Origin: Pseudomonadota bacterium
GTDB lineage: Bacteria > Pseudomonadota > Gammaproteobacteria > QQUJ01
DNA length: 64,000 bases
Direction: 5' to 3'
NCBI GenBank assembly: GCA_008501635.1
Contig: QQUJ01000010.1
Coordinates: 124,001 to 188,000 of the forward strand
The notes below the pieces were generated by a model. That model saw nothing but the letters and a program-made list of their open reading frames with translations, made no database searches and was not told the DNA's origin. Position 1 is the first letter of the stretch; every line of letters begins with the position of its first letter. Of the stretch, positions 20,941-29,735 are shown in pieces. The translations under genes were made by a program, and so were the position numbers.

Positions 20941-22164
20941 ATGATGCAGTCGACTAGCCTTACGTTTCCCAACGCCCAGGGGCAGCAACTGGCTGCGCGG
21001 CTCGATCTGCCGGTGACCGGTCAGGCGGTGGCCTACGCGCTGTTCGCGCACTGCTTTACCTGCAGCAAGAATCTCAAGGCGGTCGCCAACATTACCCGCG
21101 CACTGGCGCGCGAGGGGATTGCTACGCTGCGCTTCGATTTCACGGGGTTGGGAGAGAGCGAAGGAGATTTCGCTGACACCCATTTCTCCTCCAATGTCGA
21201 CGATCTGATCGCGGCCGCCGCATTTCTCAGCCAGCAGCATCAGGCGCCGAGCATTCTCATCGGCCATTCGCTGGGCGGTGCTGCGGTGTTGCAGGCCGCC
21301 GGCCGTATTGCATCGGTCGCCGCGGTGGCCACCATCGGTGCGCCCAGCGATCCCGAACATGTGACGCGCTTGCTGGGTGACCAAAAAGCCGTCATTGCGG
21401 AACGGGGTGAGGCCGAAGTAACCCTGGCGGGCCGCACCTTCCGTATCAGGAAAACCTTTCTCGACGATCTTGCCGAACAGAAGATGCGTGAAACCATCCA
21501 TACGCTGCGCAAGCCGCTGCTCATCCTTCATTCGCCGCTCGACGCCACGGTGGGTGTGGAGAACGCCGCGCGTATCTTTCAGGCTGCCATGCACCCAAAG
21601 AGTTACATCTCTCTCGACAAGGCCGATCATCTGCTCAGCCAGGAGCGCGACTCCCTCTATGCCGGTTCGGTCATCGCAGCGTGGGCGGCGAACTATCTGG
21701 AAGCGCATCCCCGCGACCTGTGCGGCGACAGGCTGGGCGACAATCGGGTGGTCTCGCGCACCGGATCGGGAAGCTTCACGACGGAGATCTGTGCCAACGG
21801 CCATGCCTTGATCGCTGATGAACCGATCGCGGTGGGTGGGGCCAATGCGGGACCTTCCCCCTATGAGCTGCTCGCAGCGGCACTGGGCGCTTGCACCACG
21901 ATGACTCTGCAGATGTACGCCAAGCGCAAGAAATGGCCGCTGGAGGCGGCGCAGGTCTACCTCCACCATCAGAAGATTCACGCCAACGATTGCGACGAGT
22001 GCGAAACCACCTCCGGAATGATCGACCAGATCGAGCGCGAGGTGGAGCTGATCGGGCCGCTCGATGATGAGCAGCGTCAGCGCCTGTTGGAGATCGCCGA
22101 TCGCTGCCCGGTGCATCGCACGTTGCATGCAGAAATACGCGTTCCGACGCGTCTCAAGGAGTAG
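20941..22164 (+). CDS. Bifunctional alpha/beta hydrolase - OsmC fusion
   Basis: 407 residues joining two domains. Residues 1-255 are an alpha/beta hydrolase with nucleophile elbow GHSLGGAA at about 103 and partners D and H in LHSPLDATVG and LDKADHLL. Residues 270-405 are an OsmC/Ohr-type peroxidase domain with GPSPYELLAAALGACTTMTL and DRCPVHRTL containing the two redox cysteines. OsmC proteins reduce organic peroxides with thiols, so the fusion could couple ester cleavage to peroxide removal. GGAAGGA lies upstream of tandem ATGs (20941, 20944). The fused form recurs in Proteobacteria. Confidence 0.92.
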   Translation: MMQSTSLTFPNAQGQQLAARLDLPVTGQAVAYALFAHCFTCSKNLKAVANITRALAREGIATLRFDFTGLGESEGDFADTHFSSNVDDLIAAAAFLSQQHQAPSILIGHSLGGAAVLQAAGRIASVAAVATIGAPSDPEHVTRLLGDQKAVIAERGEAEVTLAGRTFRIRKTFLDDLAEQKMRETIHTLRKPLLILHSPLDATVGVENAARIFQAAMHPKSYISLDKADHLLSQERDSLYAGSVIAAWAANYLEAHPRDLCGDRLGDNRVVSRTGSGSFTTEICANGHALIADEPIAVGGANAGPSPYELLAAALGACTTMTLQMYAKRKKWPLEAAQVYLHHQKIHANDCDECETTSGMIDQIEREVELIGPLDDEQRQRLLEIADRCPVHRTLHAEIRVPTRLKE

Positions 22165-22242: not shown

Positions 22243-23736
22243 TTAGCGGTTAGGACGATTGAAAGTGGCCGCCAGCAGCCGGGGTACGCTGTCGCCGTGC
22301 AGGGGACTCAGCTCCATGATGCGCAGCCGCTGACGGCTGAGATCGTTGCGGTGGCGCTCATAGACCGCGGGGTCGAACCAGCGTGCGCCGATCAGGGCGT
22401 AGATGGCATCCGGATGGCGTTGCGCCTCGTAGAACTGGTAGACCAGGTAATACCCTTCCGCGATCCGTTGGCGATCCTGAGCGCTCAACTCGCTGGGCGC
22501 GCCCTGCAGTTCAGGCAGCGTCAGCGGGTCACCGATATAAATCAGGTTTGGATTATCCACGCGCGGATGGTTGGCGCGATAGATGTGCGGCCACAGGATC
22601 GGTTCCTCATAGTGCCGATCCGACAGCCGCCACAGGCTGTCGCCGGTGCTGACCGAATAGGTTATGGCACTGAAAAAAGGCTGTAGCGCGCCACTGGTGG
22701 AGGTGGGCACCTGTGCGATGGGTGAGCGCTCGGGTGTGTCGATCGTGGTGGTTGTCGCCGCGGTCGAAAGATCGGCTCCGGCCGCGTTGAGTACCGGTTC
22801 TACAGGCGGTGTGGTAGAGGCGATCGGTTGCCCTGATTCGGGCAGCGCTTCACCCATCTCGCGAGCCAGGGCGTCGGGCCGATGAGTTTGCCAGGTGTCG
22901 GGTTCCGCAGGTGTGGAGACCCTGGCCTCCCCGCGGATGGGCGCAGCAGTGTCGGGTTGATGCTCGAGCGGTGCAGCGAGTGGCGGAGGCGGTTCTTCTG
23001 TCGTTGCGACGCTGGCCGGCGGTTCAGTGGCGGGCATCTCCCCGGATGACGCGGTGTCGTTTTCCATGGGCCGGGGCGCTGTCAGTGCTTGCATACTGGT
23101 TGTGGCGCCGGGCTCGGTCGCGGTGTCCGGTAAGAGCGGCGGCGCTACCGATTTTTCGGTGTCGACCACGCGGGTGGTCACACGCTCATCTTTGCTGGGT
23201 AGCAGCAGTATCACCAACACCGCGACAGCGGCGAGGAGCGCGGCAGCCGCCATCCAGCGACGCTCGGGTTGTTGCCTTGCGGCCGGCGCCTCGGGAGGTG
23301 GGGCGCCGATGACGCGCCCCGCATCCGGCTCTGGAGCCCTGGCCGCGGGTCGTATCGGCGGTGCCGTTGCCGAGGCTATCGCCTTTGGCACGGCCTCGGC
23401 CTCGGCGACCGGCAGCGGGACCGGGATGGGATGGATGGGTTCGATCCGGTCGAGCAGTGCCTTGGCCGGTGTAAAAAGCACCCGCCGATGAGCGGCGATG
23501 ACCAGCGGCGCGCCGGTCCGCGGATTGATGCCCTTGCGGGCGGCGACCGCTTTGAGGCGAAAGGTGCCGAACTGATGCAGCCGCACCGCACCATCGCGGA
23601 TCAGACCGTCGCGGATCAGATCGAGCATTCCCTTGGCCGCCTGATGCAGCAACGTCACGCGCTCGCGAACATCGGCCTGGCCCTCGGCCTTGGCGATCTC
23701 CTTGCTCAACGCGCCGGTGAAAACCCGCCGGGTCAT
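22243..23736 (-). CDS. HU-type DNA-binding domain fused to membrane segment and LysM
   Basis: 497 residues with a striking layout. Residues 1-95 are an HU/IHF domain: LHQFGTFRLKAVAARKG with the canonical DNA-arm INPRTGAPLVI. Residues 100-160 are proline/alanine-rich, 161-179 a single membrane helix, and 185-345 a long Pro/Thr/Ala/Glu spacer. Residues 358-408 are LysM (YSVSTGDSLWRLSDRHYE, then NPNLIYIGDPLTLP), followed by a helical tail. The likely orientation is DNA-binding in the cytoplasm and peptidoglycan-binding in the periplasm, which would connect nucleoid to cell wall. It overlaps the preceding small HU gene by 4 bases, so the two are one operon. Function beyond the domains is not known to me. 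Confidence 0.85.
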   Translation of the reverse strand: MTRRVFTGALSKEIAKAEGQADVRERVTLLHQAAKGMLDLIRDGLIRDGAVRLHQFGTFRLKAVAARKGINPRTGAPLVIAAHRRVLFTPAKALLDRIEPIHPIPVPLPVAEAEAVPKAIASATAPPIRPAARAPEPDAGRVIGAPPPEAPAARQQPERRWMAAAALLAAVAVLVILLLPSKDERVTTRVVDTEKSVAPPLLPDTATEPGATTSMQALTAPRPMENDTASSGEMPATEPPASVATTEEPPPPLAAPLEHQPDTAAPIRGEARVSTPAEPDTWQTHRPDALAREMGEALPESGQPIASTTPPVEPVLNAAGADLSTAATTTTIDTPERSPIAQVPTSTSGALQPFFSAITYSVSTGDSLWRLSDRHYEEPILWPHIYRANHPRVDNPNLIYIGDPLTLPELQGAPSELSAQDRQRIAEGYYLVYQFYEAQRHPDAIYALIGARWFDPAVYERHRNDLSRQRLRIMELSPLHGDSVPRLLAATFNRPNR

Positions 23737-24020
23737 GAGGGTTCAGGTTCCTGGATTTCGGCCTTGAGTTTGGCCGCAGGGCGAAAATGCGGACGGCGAT
23801 GTCCGGGTATCAGGGCCTCGGCGTCGGCGTTTGGCAAATAACCTTTGTGGGTGTGCGTGTGCTTGATACCGAAGGTGCCGAAACCGCGCAGCACCACGCT
23901 GTCACCCATCGCCAGGTGGTGGGTGATCGCCTCCAGGTGGGCCTGCACCAAGCGCTTCGCCTCAGCCTTGCTGATGGCCAGTTGTTTGGCGAGGCGCTCG
24001 ACGAGTTCGGTGGTGTTCAT
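23733..24020 (-). CDS. Small HU/IHF-like DNA-binding protein
   Basis: 95 residues: MNTTELVERLAKQLAISKAEAKRLV is the HU helical part and VVLRGFGTFGIK the dimer strand. The usual RNPxTG arm tip is replaced by HTHTHKGYLPNADAEALIPGHRRP, so DNA bending may differ from standard HU. It is the first gene of a two-gene operon with the membrane-anchored HU-LysM protein, overlapping it ATGA-style, and the two may form a heterodimer. The ATG is preceded only by a weak GGG. A repeated GTATTTA occurs twice in the upstream 60 bases. Confidence 0.85.
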   Translation of the reverse strand: MNTTELVERLAKQLAISKAEAKRLVQAHLEAITHHLAMGDSVVLRGFGTFGIKHTHTHKGYLPNADAEALIPGHRRPHFRPAAKLKAEIQEPEPS

Positions 24021-24115
24021 TAAATACCCATATTCAATACGTGTATAAATACTCTAGGTTGATATCGGCAGATTTGCCACAATCCCAAGTCTGATGTGGT
24101 GGCAAACACGCGCCT

Positions 24116-25761: not shown

Positions 25762-28380
25762 ATGAAGACAACGACTCATAAAGCGGCGGACAGATCGCGC
25801 TGGAACGTCTGGTGGATTGTCGCCGCACCACTTCTTGTCGTGTGCGCCGGCCTCATCTACGAGGCTTATCTTGCGCAACGGGCGGAACAGGATCTGCGCC
25901 TGCGCACGGTCAGCGCGCTCTCCACCCTGCGCGCCCAGCTCGAAGGGGCTCTCAACAGCAATATCAGCCTGGCGCAGGGGCTGGTCGCGGTTGTCGCCAC
26001 CAAACCCGATATTGATCAAAACGAGTTTGTGGATCTGGCACGCGAACTGTTCCGCCAACCCTCGCAAATGCGCAACATTGCACTGGCTCGCGACATGGTC
26101 ATCTCGCATGTCTACCCCGTGGAAGCTAATAGAGCCTCGTTAGGGCTCAACTACATGACGCATCCCCAGCAGCGCGAGGCGGCCATACGCGTGCGCGAAA
26201 GCGGCAAGATCGTCGTCGCCGGACCGGTCAACCTGGTGCAGGGCGGTGTCGGTCTGATAGCCAGAGCACCGGTCTTCGTGCGCGATCCCGCAACCGGGCA
26301 AGCCGGTCGGTTCTGGGGTTTGATCGCTGCGGTCATCGACACGAAAGCGCTCTATCGCGCCGCCGGTCTGGTAAATGTCGGAGCAAACCTACAGGTCGCG
26401 CTGCGGGGCAAAGATGGCTCTGGAGATATCGGTGACGTGTTTTTCGGCGATCCCGAAGTTTTCAAACAACAACCGGTGTCGCAGACCATTTCGCTGCCCC
26501 TGGGCACGTGGCGCATCGCTGCCATTCCCAGCGGAGGCTGGCAGGTCGATCATCCCGACGTGTGGCAACTGCGCACAGCCACGGTGGTGTTTGCGGCCAT
26601 GGCCTTGGTGTTCGCTGCCTTTTGGCGGCGCTATCTCAAAGAGCGACGGGAATCCGAGTTGCGCCTGCTGCAGGCACAGGCAAAGCTGCTCGCCGCGCTG
26701 GAGCAGAGCCCCGCCGGCATCATCCTAGCCGATGCGCCGGGCGGGGAGATCCGCGTAGTCAACTCGGCGGCGCTGAAGATCCGGGGTCTGGCAGAGGAAG
26801 AGATCTGCGGCAAGTCCTACATAGAACTGGGGCGGCTTGTTCCCACCTACCATTTGGATGGAAGAGTTTTTGATGATGACGAATTGCCGCTATCGCGCGC
26901 CATCCACCATGGCGAGAGCCCGCGCAACATGGAGCTGTTGTTGCACAAGGGGACACCCAACGAACGTTGGGTACTGGCCAATTCGGGCCCGGTGCGCGAC
27001 GATGCCGGTGAGATCATCGGTGGTGTCGTGGTCTTTTCCGATGTCACCGATGTAAAGCGCACCGAAGAACAGATCCGCCAACGCGCCTATTACGACTCCC
27101 TGACCGCCCTGCCGAATCGAGTACTGTTTCTCGAAGTGCTGGAGAAGGCGATCAAGCGCAACAACCGGCAGGGAAAGATCCTGGCGTTGATGTATATCGA
27201 CCTCGATCGTTTCAAGATCGTCAATGACACCCTGGGACACGATGTCGGCGATCTGTTGCTGCATGAAGCGGCAGGACGAATTCGCGAACTGATACGCGGC
27301 AGCGACACCGTGGCACGGCTTGGCGGTGATGAGTTCACCGTAATACTTCCCGAACTCACGCACCCCGACAACGCGACGGTGATCGCCGAGAAACTGATTC
27401 GCAAGCTCGCGGAACCCTATCAACTGATGGGCCACGAGGTGTACTCGGGTGCGAGCATCGGTATTACCTTTTCACCGGGGGATGGCCTCGCACCCAGCAC
27501 GCTGCTCAAGAACGCTGATATGGCGATGTACCAGGCCAAGGATCAGGGTCGCAACGCTTTTCAGTGTTTCAGCGCCGAGATGACCGAGCGCGCCGAATCG
27601 TTCGTCGCGGTGGAGAAGGATCTACGCCGGGCATTGGAACGCGGTGAGCTGCGCATGGAATATCAACCGATCTTTCAGGTCACCGCCCGTAAGGTCGCTG
27701 GTGTCGAGGCGCTGGTGCGATGGGAACATCCGGAGCTGGGAATGGTGGGCCCCGACAAGTTCATCCCTGTCGCCGAAGAGACCGGGTTGATCCATCGCCT
27801 GGGGATTTGGGTGTTGCGCACCGCCTGCCGGGAGAACATGGAACTGGGGGCGGCGCTGGGTAGAGACCCGTTGCGCCTGGCGGTCAATGTATCGAGTCGG
27901 CAGTTCCGATTGGGATTCGATGCCGCGCTTGTCGCGCGCATTCTGGAAGAGACGGGATATCCGGCTGATCGACTCGCGCTGGAGATTACCGAGTCGCTGT
28001 TGGTGGAAGAGGACAATCGAGTCCACCAGACGCTGGTCGAGTTGCGCGAGATGGGTGTGGCGCTGTCGGTGGACGATTTCGGCACCGGCTATTCGTCACT
28101 CGGTTATCTGCGCCGCTTTCCCGTTTCGGTGCTCAAAGTGGATCGCTCCTTCATGCGCGAGTTGGGACACAACCCCCGTGATACCAATCTGGTCGAAGCC
28201 ATCGTCGCCATTGCGCGCAGCCTGCAGATGCGCGTCGTCGCAGAGGGTGTTGAAACCGAAGATCAGCTGGCGCAGCTAGCCCATATCGGCTGCGAGTACG
28301 CGCAAGGGTTTTTACTCGGTCGGCCGGTCGCCGTTGCGGTTCTTGCAGAATCGTTGAACGACTCGGATCTGGTCGACTAA
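25762..28380 (+). CDS. Membrane CHASE-PAS-GGDEF-EAL c-di-GMP enzyme
   Basis: 872 residues. A membrane segment (about 17-37) precedes a periplasmic CHASE-like sensor (to about 275) and a second membrane segment near 278-296. A PAS domain (about 310-430) comes next. The GGDEF motif is intact near 521 with an RGSD inhibitory site five residues before it. The EAL domain begins VEALVRW near 647 and keeps NVSSRQF, EITESLL, DDFGTGYSS, KVDRSFM and AEGVETE, so both cyclase and phosphodiesterase activities are possible. It could make or degrade c-di-GMP depending on an extracellular signal. Its stop overlaps the convergent RuBisCO-like gene by 4 bases. Confidence 0.92.
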   Translation: MKTTTHKAADRSRWNVWWIVAAPLLVVCAGLIYEAYLAQRAEQDLRLRTVSALSTLRAQLEGALNSNISLAQGLVAVVATKPDIDQNEFVDLARELFRQPSQMRNIALARDMVISHVYPVEANRASLGLNYMTHPQQREAAIRVRESGKIVVAGPVNLVQGGVGLIARAPVFVRDPATGQAGRFWGLIAAVIDTKALYRAAGLVNVGANLQVALRGKDGSGDIGDVFFGDPEVFKQQPVSQTISLPLGTWRIAAIPSGGWQVDHPDVWQLRTATVVFAAMALVFAAFWRRYLKERRESELRLLQAQAKLLAALEQSPAGIILADAPGGEIRVVNSAALKIRGLAEEEICGKSYIELGRLVPTYHLDGRVFDDDELPLSRAIHHGESPRNMELLLHKGTPNERWVLANSGPVRDDAGEIIGGVVVFSDVTDVKRTEEQIRQRAYYDSLTALPNRVLFLEVLEKAIKRNNRQGKILALMYIDLDRFKIVNDTLGHDVGDLLLHEAAGRIRELIRGSDTVARLGGDEFTVILPELTHPDNATVIAEKLIRKLAEPYQLMGHEVYSGASIGITFSPGDGLAPSTLLKNADMAMYQAKDQGRNAFQCFSAEMTERAESFVAVEKDLRRALERGELRMEYQPIFQVTARKVAGVEALVRWEHPELGMVGPDKFIPVAEETGLIHRLGIWVLRTACRENMELGAALGRDPLRLAVNVSSRQFRLGFDAALVARILEETGYPADRLALEITESLLVEEDNRVHQTLVELREMGVALSVDDFGTGYSSLGYLRRFPVSVLKVDRSFMRELGHNPRDTNLVEAIVAIARSLQMRVVAEGVETEDQLAQLAHIGCEYAQGFLLGRPVAVAVLAESLNDSDLVD

Positions 28381-29735
28381 CTCGCCCGGTGGTGGGGTTC
28401 CCTATTTTCCTCTTGCGGGGGTTTCTCGAAGTGATCGAAGGCACTCCGTAACTCGGGGTGACTGAGCGCGTAGTGTCGCGCAGCAATGCCATCGCGGTAC
28501 GCTTCCCACGCTTGTACCACGCTGCGCGCTCCCGCCAGGGCGCCAGCGGGATGGGCGTAGACTCCGTGTCCGATTATCATCCCCACTTCCCGTATGCCGC
28601 CCGCGTCCAATATCGCGCCGAGGTTGGTTGCCTTCACGCCACCGCCGAACAAGGGTTGCGACGGCCGTATCGAACCCATGGGTTCCTGGTGGACGGCGAT
28701 CTCATCCGCGATGTCGCTGGAGTACTCCATCTGCGTGGCCCCGGGCGCGGGGACCATGACGTTATCGAGACCCGCCAGCCGCTGGAGTTTGGCCCAGACT
28801 TTATGGCTGACGCCATGGAACGGAACCTTGGCGTTGCAGGCGGTCATGCCGAAATGCGACGTCACCGGCACTTCGCTGTGCTGAGTCAATAAACGGGTAC
28901 CGGCGAGTCCCACGGCCATCGCGTTGACCATGACCAGGTCTGCGCCGTTGGCGACCGCCAGGTCATGATTGCGCAGAAGTTGATCGAGATCAGCGGTGAT
29001 ATTGGCCTGGTAGTAAACCTTGCGACCCAGGTGATCGGCGGCGCGTTTGGCCGCATCGCTGACGGCGCGCACCCGGCTCACCAGGGGAGACTCGTCGATG
29101 TCCACCAGCAACTCGTCGTCTTTCACCATGTCGAGACCGCCGATCAGGCTCTGGTAGGCCAGTTCGGCGAACAGGCCGGTGGGCGCCGGGCTGGGTTTTA
29201 TAGCGCCGATCAGCAGCGGTCTCCCGATTTCCGCCCCCAAGCGCTTACGAACATCCGTGGCCCCGAACTTGGGTCCGGCGTAGCGCTCCAGATAGACGAT
29301 GGGAAATTCAACATCGACCAGCTTGATGGAGATGAAGGGCTCGAGGTTGTGGATCTCGCCGGCTACCGCGGTGAGCAACAGTGCGATGCTTGATCCGAGG
29401 TTGCCTACCGGTATCGCGATACGCGCGCTCGCCCGCCAGAGCTTGCCGTACCCATTGCGCTGAAGTTTGGGCGCGACCGGCGGCATATCGGGTAGATCTC
29501 CGGCTTCAACGATATCGTAGTGGAGCAGTTTGGCGCCGTAACGCTCGACAATCGCGCGATTTTCGCCGGCCACTGTACCACTGGTTCCCCAGCCTGCGCC
29601 GGAGGTGCTGCGCGATTTGCACAATTCCACCGCAGCGCGAATAGGATTCTGGTGCGTCTGGTAGGAATAGGTGCAGATCAGGTAGTCGTCAGGGTTGGTG
29701 AGACCCTCCAATGCGGTGAAACGTTTGTCGATCAT
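28377..29735 (-). CDS. RuBisCO-like protein (form IV type)
   Basis: 452 residues with RuBisCO large-subunit fold landmarks, but the active site is altered. Retained: IKP (K180, equivalent of K175) and the carbamylation/metal motif KDDE (K205-E208). Changed: the K177 position is S182; H294-R295 becomes H294-F295; the H327 region is NVMVPAP; the flexible loop-6 lysine motif GKLEG is missing; and the phosphate-site GGG is IGHG. So ribulose bisphosphate carboxylation is not expected. RuBisCO-like proteins are known as enolases/isomerases in methionine salvage and as enzymes in tetronate/apionate catabolism. No companion gene is present, so the substrate is unknown. Confidence 0.87.
   Translation of the reverse strand: MIDKRFTALEGLTNPDDYLICTYSYQTHQNPIRAAVELCKSRSTSGAGWGTSGTVAGENRAIVERYGAKLLHYDIVEAGDLPDMPPVAPKLQRNGYGKLWRASARIAIPVGNLGSSIALLLTAVAGEIHNLEPFISIKLVDVEFPIVYLERYAGPKFGATDVRKRLGAEIGRPLLIGAIKPSPAPTGLFAELAYQSLIGGLDMVKDDELLVDIDESPLVSRVRAVSDAAKRAADHLGRKVYYQANITADLDQLLRNHDLAVANGADLVMVNAMAVGLAGTRLLTQHSEVPVTSHFGMTACNAKVPFHGVSHKVWAKLQRLAGLDNVMVPAPGATQMEYSSDIADEIAVHQEPMGSIRPSQPLFGGGVKATNLGAILDAGGIREVGMIIGHGVYAHPAGALAGARSVVQAWEAYRDGIAARHYALSHPELRSAFDHFEKPPQEENREPHHRAS

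Follow-up and report, generated by a model that had tools for sequence, protein, structure and literature searches.

HU and IHF work as dimers, in which two arms clasp the DNA and each inserts a proline. Burroughs et al. are said to have predicted, in 2017, membrane-bound proteins from Bacteroidetes that combine a CCDC81-like HU with a SPOR domain. Another precedent is Rv3852 of Mycobacterium tuberculosis, which is described as a nucleoid-associated protein with a one-helix membrane anchor, linked to cell-wall growth (PMC8233713). The words membrane, peptidoglycan and LysM are absent from a recent review of nucleoid-associated proteins (PMC11894785), and no description of an HU/HU-LysM bicistron or of an HU-LysM fusion was found in our literature search.

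In the present work, we examine two overlapping genes, called A and B, on the minus strand of a 64,000-nucleotide stretch of contig QQUJ01000010.1 from a gammaproteobacterial assembly (the whole stretch is called the window below). We propose, with a probability of about one half, that A and B constitute a dedicated HU/IHF-type heterodimer that is anchored via the inner membrane to the peptidoglycan and serves as a DNA-to-wall tether. The fold, the topology and the pairing of the two proteins are well supported; the heterodimer, the binding of DNA and of peptidoglycan, and the cellular role are what we infer.

Gene A (23733-24020, minus strand) encodes a free-standing HU/IHF-type protein of 95 residues. 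It matches the Pfam family PF00216 from end to end (E 3.5e-21, 75.7 bits, cut-off 22.4), and the AlphaFold2 model is a clean HU fold with a pLDDT of 88, for which Foldseek gives TM scores of 0.7-0.8 to HU/IHF structures. The arm has normal length and the sequence HKGYLP, with the proline P63 at the intercalating position, and this proline is invariant in all 20 A proteins of the alignment. The NPxTG motif is absent, as YLP or YRP replaces RNP and the TG is missing. The initial annotation, according to which A lacks the usual arm tip, was thus correct about the motif and would be wrong only if taken to imply a loss of the proline. In the HU tree, all A proteins form one clade (support 98/94) that is separate from the hosts' other HU and IHF proteins. 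An AT-rich intergenic stretch (24021-24115), presumed to be the promoter region, separates A from a divergent Gly_transporter/UPF0126 gene; a promoter scan found no consensus sigma-70 site in it.

Gene B (22243-23736, minus strand) encodes 497 residues that comprise an HU domain, a membrane helix, a spacer, a LysM domain and a helical tail. Its start overlaps the stop of A by 4 bp in the sequence ATGA (23733-23736, minus strand), an arrangement that points to translational coupling. The reading frames, strand and positions of the two genes, their overlap, and the description of B as an HU with complete arm motif followed by one membrane helix, a Pro-rich spacer and LysM had all been proposed before, and they are borne out by the Pfam searches, the hydropathy analysis and the structural model.

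The HU domain of B occupies residues ca 6-98 (23443-23721, minus strand). PF00216 matches residues 32-98 (E 3e-16, 59.9 bits, cut-off 22.4) and is also matched by 21 of 21 aligned B proteins. In the AlphaFold2 model, the HU fold is found at residues 9-97 with a weak first helix, and a Foldseek search with this part returns HU/IHF structures. This first helix is divergent in the B protein of the window, where the Pfam match begins only at profile position 23 and the pLDDT is below 50. The arm, RKGINPRTG, carries the canonical motif GINPRTG. Its proline P72 is invariant in the alignment, and at the arm tip of the relatives NPxTG is relaxed to (N/D/H)Px(T/S)G. The B HU domains do not resolve as a single clade in the HU tree (support 62/29).

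Next to the HU domain, B contains one strongly hydrophobic stretch at residues 161-179 (23200-23256, minus strand), with a basic flank toward HU. The Kyte-Doolittle mean is 2.8, compared to 0.95 for the next best stretch, and a lone helix is modelled at 158-178. A single helix is present in 26/26 B proteins (Kyte-Doolittle 2.0-3.3) and appears to be membrane-spanning in all of them, as had been assumed for the window. Lysine and arginine are more abundant on the HU-side flank than on the far side, the two being equal only in the B protein of the window (n=26). These charged flanks suggest an N-in, C-out topology, which places HU in the cytoplasm and LysM beyond the membrane, where this domain would have to be.

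The helix is followed by a Pro/Ala/Thr/Ser-rich spacer of about 175 residues (22681-23199, minus strand), 68% of which are P, A, T, S, V or E. It is predicted to be disordered, with pLDDT mostly below 50, and ranges from 35 to 275 residues among the homologues; by simple contour length, even the shortest spacer of 35 residues should still reach the wall. The LysM domain (residues 360-408; 22513-22659, minus strand) matches PF01476 with an E-value of 1.9e-6 (28.2 bits, cut-off 20.9) and is modelled from about 353 to 407, followed by a confident helical tail to residue 476. This tail (residues 409-476; 22309-22512, minus strand) has a pLDDT of mostly about 90 and is conserved in the alignment. 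It is important to point out that the Pfam LysM model matches only 10 of the 21 aligned B proteins, which raised the possibility that the domain is missing in one of the two clades of the family, called the short clade below. We rejected this option, as our own LysM profile, made from unrelated secreted LysM proteins, matches all 21 with E-values of 3e-13 or better. LysM by itself is no proof of peptidoglycan binding.

We now compare the pair with the known systems. With HU/IHF (DNABII, PF00216), A and B share the fold, the arm proline and the two-subunit logic of IHF-alpha/beta and of E. coli HU-alpha/beta. They differ from it by the membrane helix, spacer, LysM and tail of B, by the overlapping bicistron, and by the absence of NPxTG in A. 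No NCBIfam equivalog is passed by either protein, the best scores to the IHF models (himA/hip) being 56.1 bits for A (cut-off 111) and 44.6 for B. The Bacteroidetes HU-SPOR proteins, as reportedly predicted, are similar in concept, with HU inside, a membrane helix, and a peptidoglycan-binding domain outside. The present pair is distinguished from them by its classical PF00216 HU, its LysM, the obligate second HU gene and the proteobacterial hosts. The CCDC81-type HU models (PF18174/PF18175) give 21.5 bits for the A protein of the window (cut-off 35) and no match for its B protein, and a domain search detects no SPOR domain in B, leaving LysM as the only wall-binding domain. Secreted LysM proteins (dprA-type and others) have the LysM pattern WP-I--N and NP-LI-PG in common with B; unlike B, they start with a signal peptide or lipoprotein sequence and contain no HU. 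Rv3852, in turn, is described as a non-HU protein with a C-terminal helix, lacking a wall-binding domain and a partner gene (PMC8233713).

Membrane-anchored nucleoid proteins and fusions of HU with wall domains thus already have precedents, and it is the HU/HU-LysM two-gene form that seems to be new. The original suggestion of a new system is accordingly fair for this form and too broad for the general idea. That the pair is an undescribed module joining the chromosome to peptidoglycan through an HU heterodimer, independently of transertion or ParABS/MinD-type anchoring, is a tentative proposal, to which we assign slightly less than even odds.

The fusion of HU with LysM belongs to a family. 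Profile searches yield 26 distinct B proteins, from Gammaproteobacteria (including Gallionellaceae) and from MAGs filed as Zetaproteobacteria and Desulfobacterota, and all 26 combine HU, one membrane helix and LysM; homologues devoid of LysM, which would have spoken against the initial annotation, do not occur among them. Gene A lies directly upstream of B with an overlap of exactly 4 bp in each of the 25 loci in which its position can be seen (GTGA in one of them), such that the pairing is kept across the lineages. When GTDB contigs were scanned with a LysM-plus-tail profile, derived from the homologues of the class-wide search described below, 80 loci were obtained. In 19 of these the LysM is part of an HU-containing ORF, and a complete second HU gene (~100 residues) immediately precedes B in 18, the 19th being located at a contig end. 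In Gallionellaceae, B is found in 16 of 150 genomes and A in exactly the same 16, scoring at least 139 bits, whereas ordinary HU/IHF-type matches do not exceed 71 bits. These results confirm that the A/B unit is real and not a one-off fusion. The conserved, translationally coupled pair of HU genes also suggests an IHF-like heterodimer.

Every folded part of the two proteins is under purifying selection, while the spacer is relaxed: the medians of pairwise dN/dS in Gallionellaceae, from pairs that are not independent of each other, are 0.19 (A), 0.17 (HU domain of B), 0.27 (LysM plus tail) and 0.59 (spacer). We also note a 195-residue protein in another genome (G300, L065 9736-10323, minus strand) that combines a membrane helix with LysM and the helical tail seen in B and lacks HU; there is no HU gene within 20 kb of it.

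The main question is then whether the HU domains bind DNA. In the window, the net charge is +11 for the HU domain of B (arm +7) and +3 for A (arm +3), values comparable to the canonical HU/IHF medians of +5 and +6 for domain and arm, respectively. The short clade, which is the larger of the two in the family, has medians of -3 for the HU domain of B (arm -1) and +1 for A (arm +2), and its B arm, HDPNSG, contains little K or R. The HU domain of B thus ranges from acidic to neutral in this clade and that of A is close to neutral, which does not resemble a general DNA binder and casts doubt on ordinary non-specific DNA binding by these proteins. Two scenarios can be considered for these proteins: a specialised DNA binding that relies on A, or HU folds that now bind protein. 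The latter would make the pair an envelope scaffold or adaptor that binds DNA little or not at all, in the short clade if not throughout the family. Such a conversion may have a parallel, as HU folds of the CCDC81 clade have reportedly taken a protein-module role (Burroughs and co-workers, 2017). However, the window's clade has basic HU domains, purifying selection has preserved the arm proline as well as the xPx(T/S)G tip of B, and both A and B score far higher with classical PF00216 than with the CCDC81-type models. We therefore regard the scaffold as unlikely, although it is the alternative that survives best. As for the operon for a nucleoid-peptidoglycan heterodimer envisaged in the initial annotation, the two HU folds and the conserved, coupled two-gene unit hold, and the DNA half of the proposal is weakened by the charge of the short-clade B proteins.

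The host genome also carries a canonical HU and two proteins that group with IHF, and the A/B pair is thus an addition to these and not a replacement. A sixth, divergent HU-like gene is located about 50 kb from the pair (L006 1501-1794; G000:C10:197521-197814). It has an odd N-terminal half, a canonical GRNPFTG arm and the longest branch in the HU tree.

In the tether mechanism that we favour, A and B would be made in equal amounts through translational coupling. The HU domain of B would pair with A in the cytoplasm, and the pair would bind or bend chromosomal DNA. From there, the single helix of B would span the inner membrane and the disordered spacer would cross the periplasm, allowing LysM and the helical tail to grip the peptidoglycan. 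The outcome would be a physical tether between chromosome and wall, perhaps positioning or stabilising part of the nucleoid.

The same topology is found in one-component regulators of the ToxR/CadC type, and another option is therefore a membrane-spanning regulator, in which LysM senses the wall state or muropeptides and the HU pair alters local DNA shape and transcription. The conservation of LysM and tail would fit this option as well. However, no conserved neighbouring target gene is present in any lineage, HU folds show little sequence preference in DNA binding, and the tolerance of the spacer to lengths from 35 to 275 residues is more in keeping with a tether than with a signal path. We consider a regulator rather improbable.

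No neighbour of A/B is common to the lineages, which indicates that the bicistron is the whole unit and that the only constant partner of each gene is the other one. A gene with SBP and SLT (lytic transglycosylase) domains beside the pair in one locus (L063) was considered as a functional clue, and it is not a shared neighbour in the other lineages. Several neighbour clusters from the crude gene calls, which are probably ORFs in the wrong frame, were left out of this comparison. Around the pair in the window, we note three further genes: a CsgG-like protein with PG_binding_1 (PF03783, PF01471; 18977-19972, plus strand), which lies about 2.3 kb from the pair and is, like B, an envelope protein with a domain for wall binding; a fusion of an alpha/beta hydrolase and an OsmC domain (20941-22164, plus strand); and a gene at 28377-29735 (minus strand) with the RuBisCO large-chain catalytic domain (PF00016) as its sole match, which could encode a RuBisCO-like protein. 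In a Desulfobacterales MAG (L106 3620-4959 and 7386-10097), some 2.4 kb separate A/B from a pheT-ihfA-like gene pair.

The pair is rare, and its distribution is patchy. In a class-wide search of 369 Gammaproteobacteria genomes, full homologues were found in three genomes besides that of the window (4/369 in total), and the window protein as query and a 21-row profile gave the same four. Outside this class, there is 1 carrier among the 78 genomes of the class to which the Zetaproteobacteria MAG belongs and 1 among the 297 of the phylum that contains the Desulfobacterales MAG; the spread across phyla is softer than the other results, as it depends on MAG record names and some short contigs could be misbinned. 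There are also signs of decay. One genome (G154) has an intact pair adjoining a gene that encodes SBP and SLT domains, and its congener (G265) retains only a decayed C-terminal remnant of B (L068 1268-1819) that adjoins a transglycosylase gene. In G422, one of the 16 Gallionellaceae carriers, B is interrupted by an apparent IS200-type transposase ORF (L192 about 1501-2007) and A persists in altered form. Loss, horizontal transfer or both are likely behind this pattern, and a pair that is rare and sometimes decayed is not an essential housekeeping system.

The patchiness, the differing chromosomal contexts and the decay could also be explained if A/B were a stability or partition factor of mobile or horizontally moving DNA, which it would tether to the envelope. 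Against this, viral contigs yielded no relative, the plasmid search gave HU-only or LysM-only matches and no full-length one, and there is no conserved mobile-element neighbour, so we give this possibility little credence. The PADLOC defence models gave no match. Finally, one could invoke that the gene order of the window has no comparison genome and see the unit as a functionless product of chance fusion or misassembly. This reading is already refuted by the 26 distinct homologues, the dN/dS values well below 1, the conserved overlap and the strict co-occurrence of A and B.

Whether and how the bacterial nucleoid is mechanically linked to the envelope has long been asked, and the answers, such as transertion, have mostly been indirect. 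If the tether proposed here is correct, some proteobacteria would have a direct connection from DNA to the cell wall, and a compact and portable unit, with its HU pair in the cytoplasm and its wall-binding domain beyond the membrane, would make this linkage testable by addition or removal. The basic HU half of the window type and the acidic one of the Gallionella type also offer a natural test of whether HU has shifted from DNA to protein partners.
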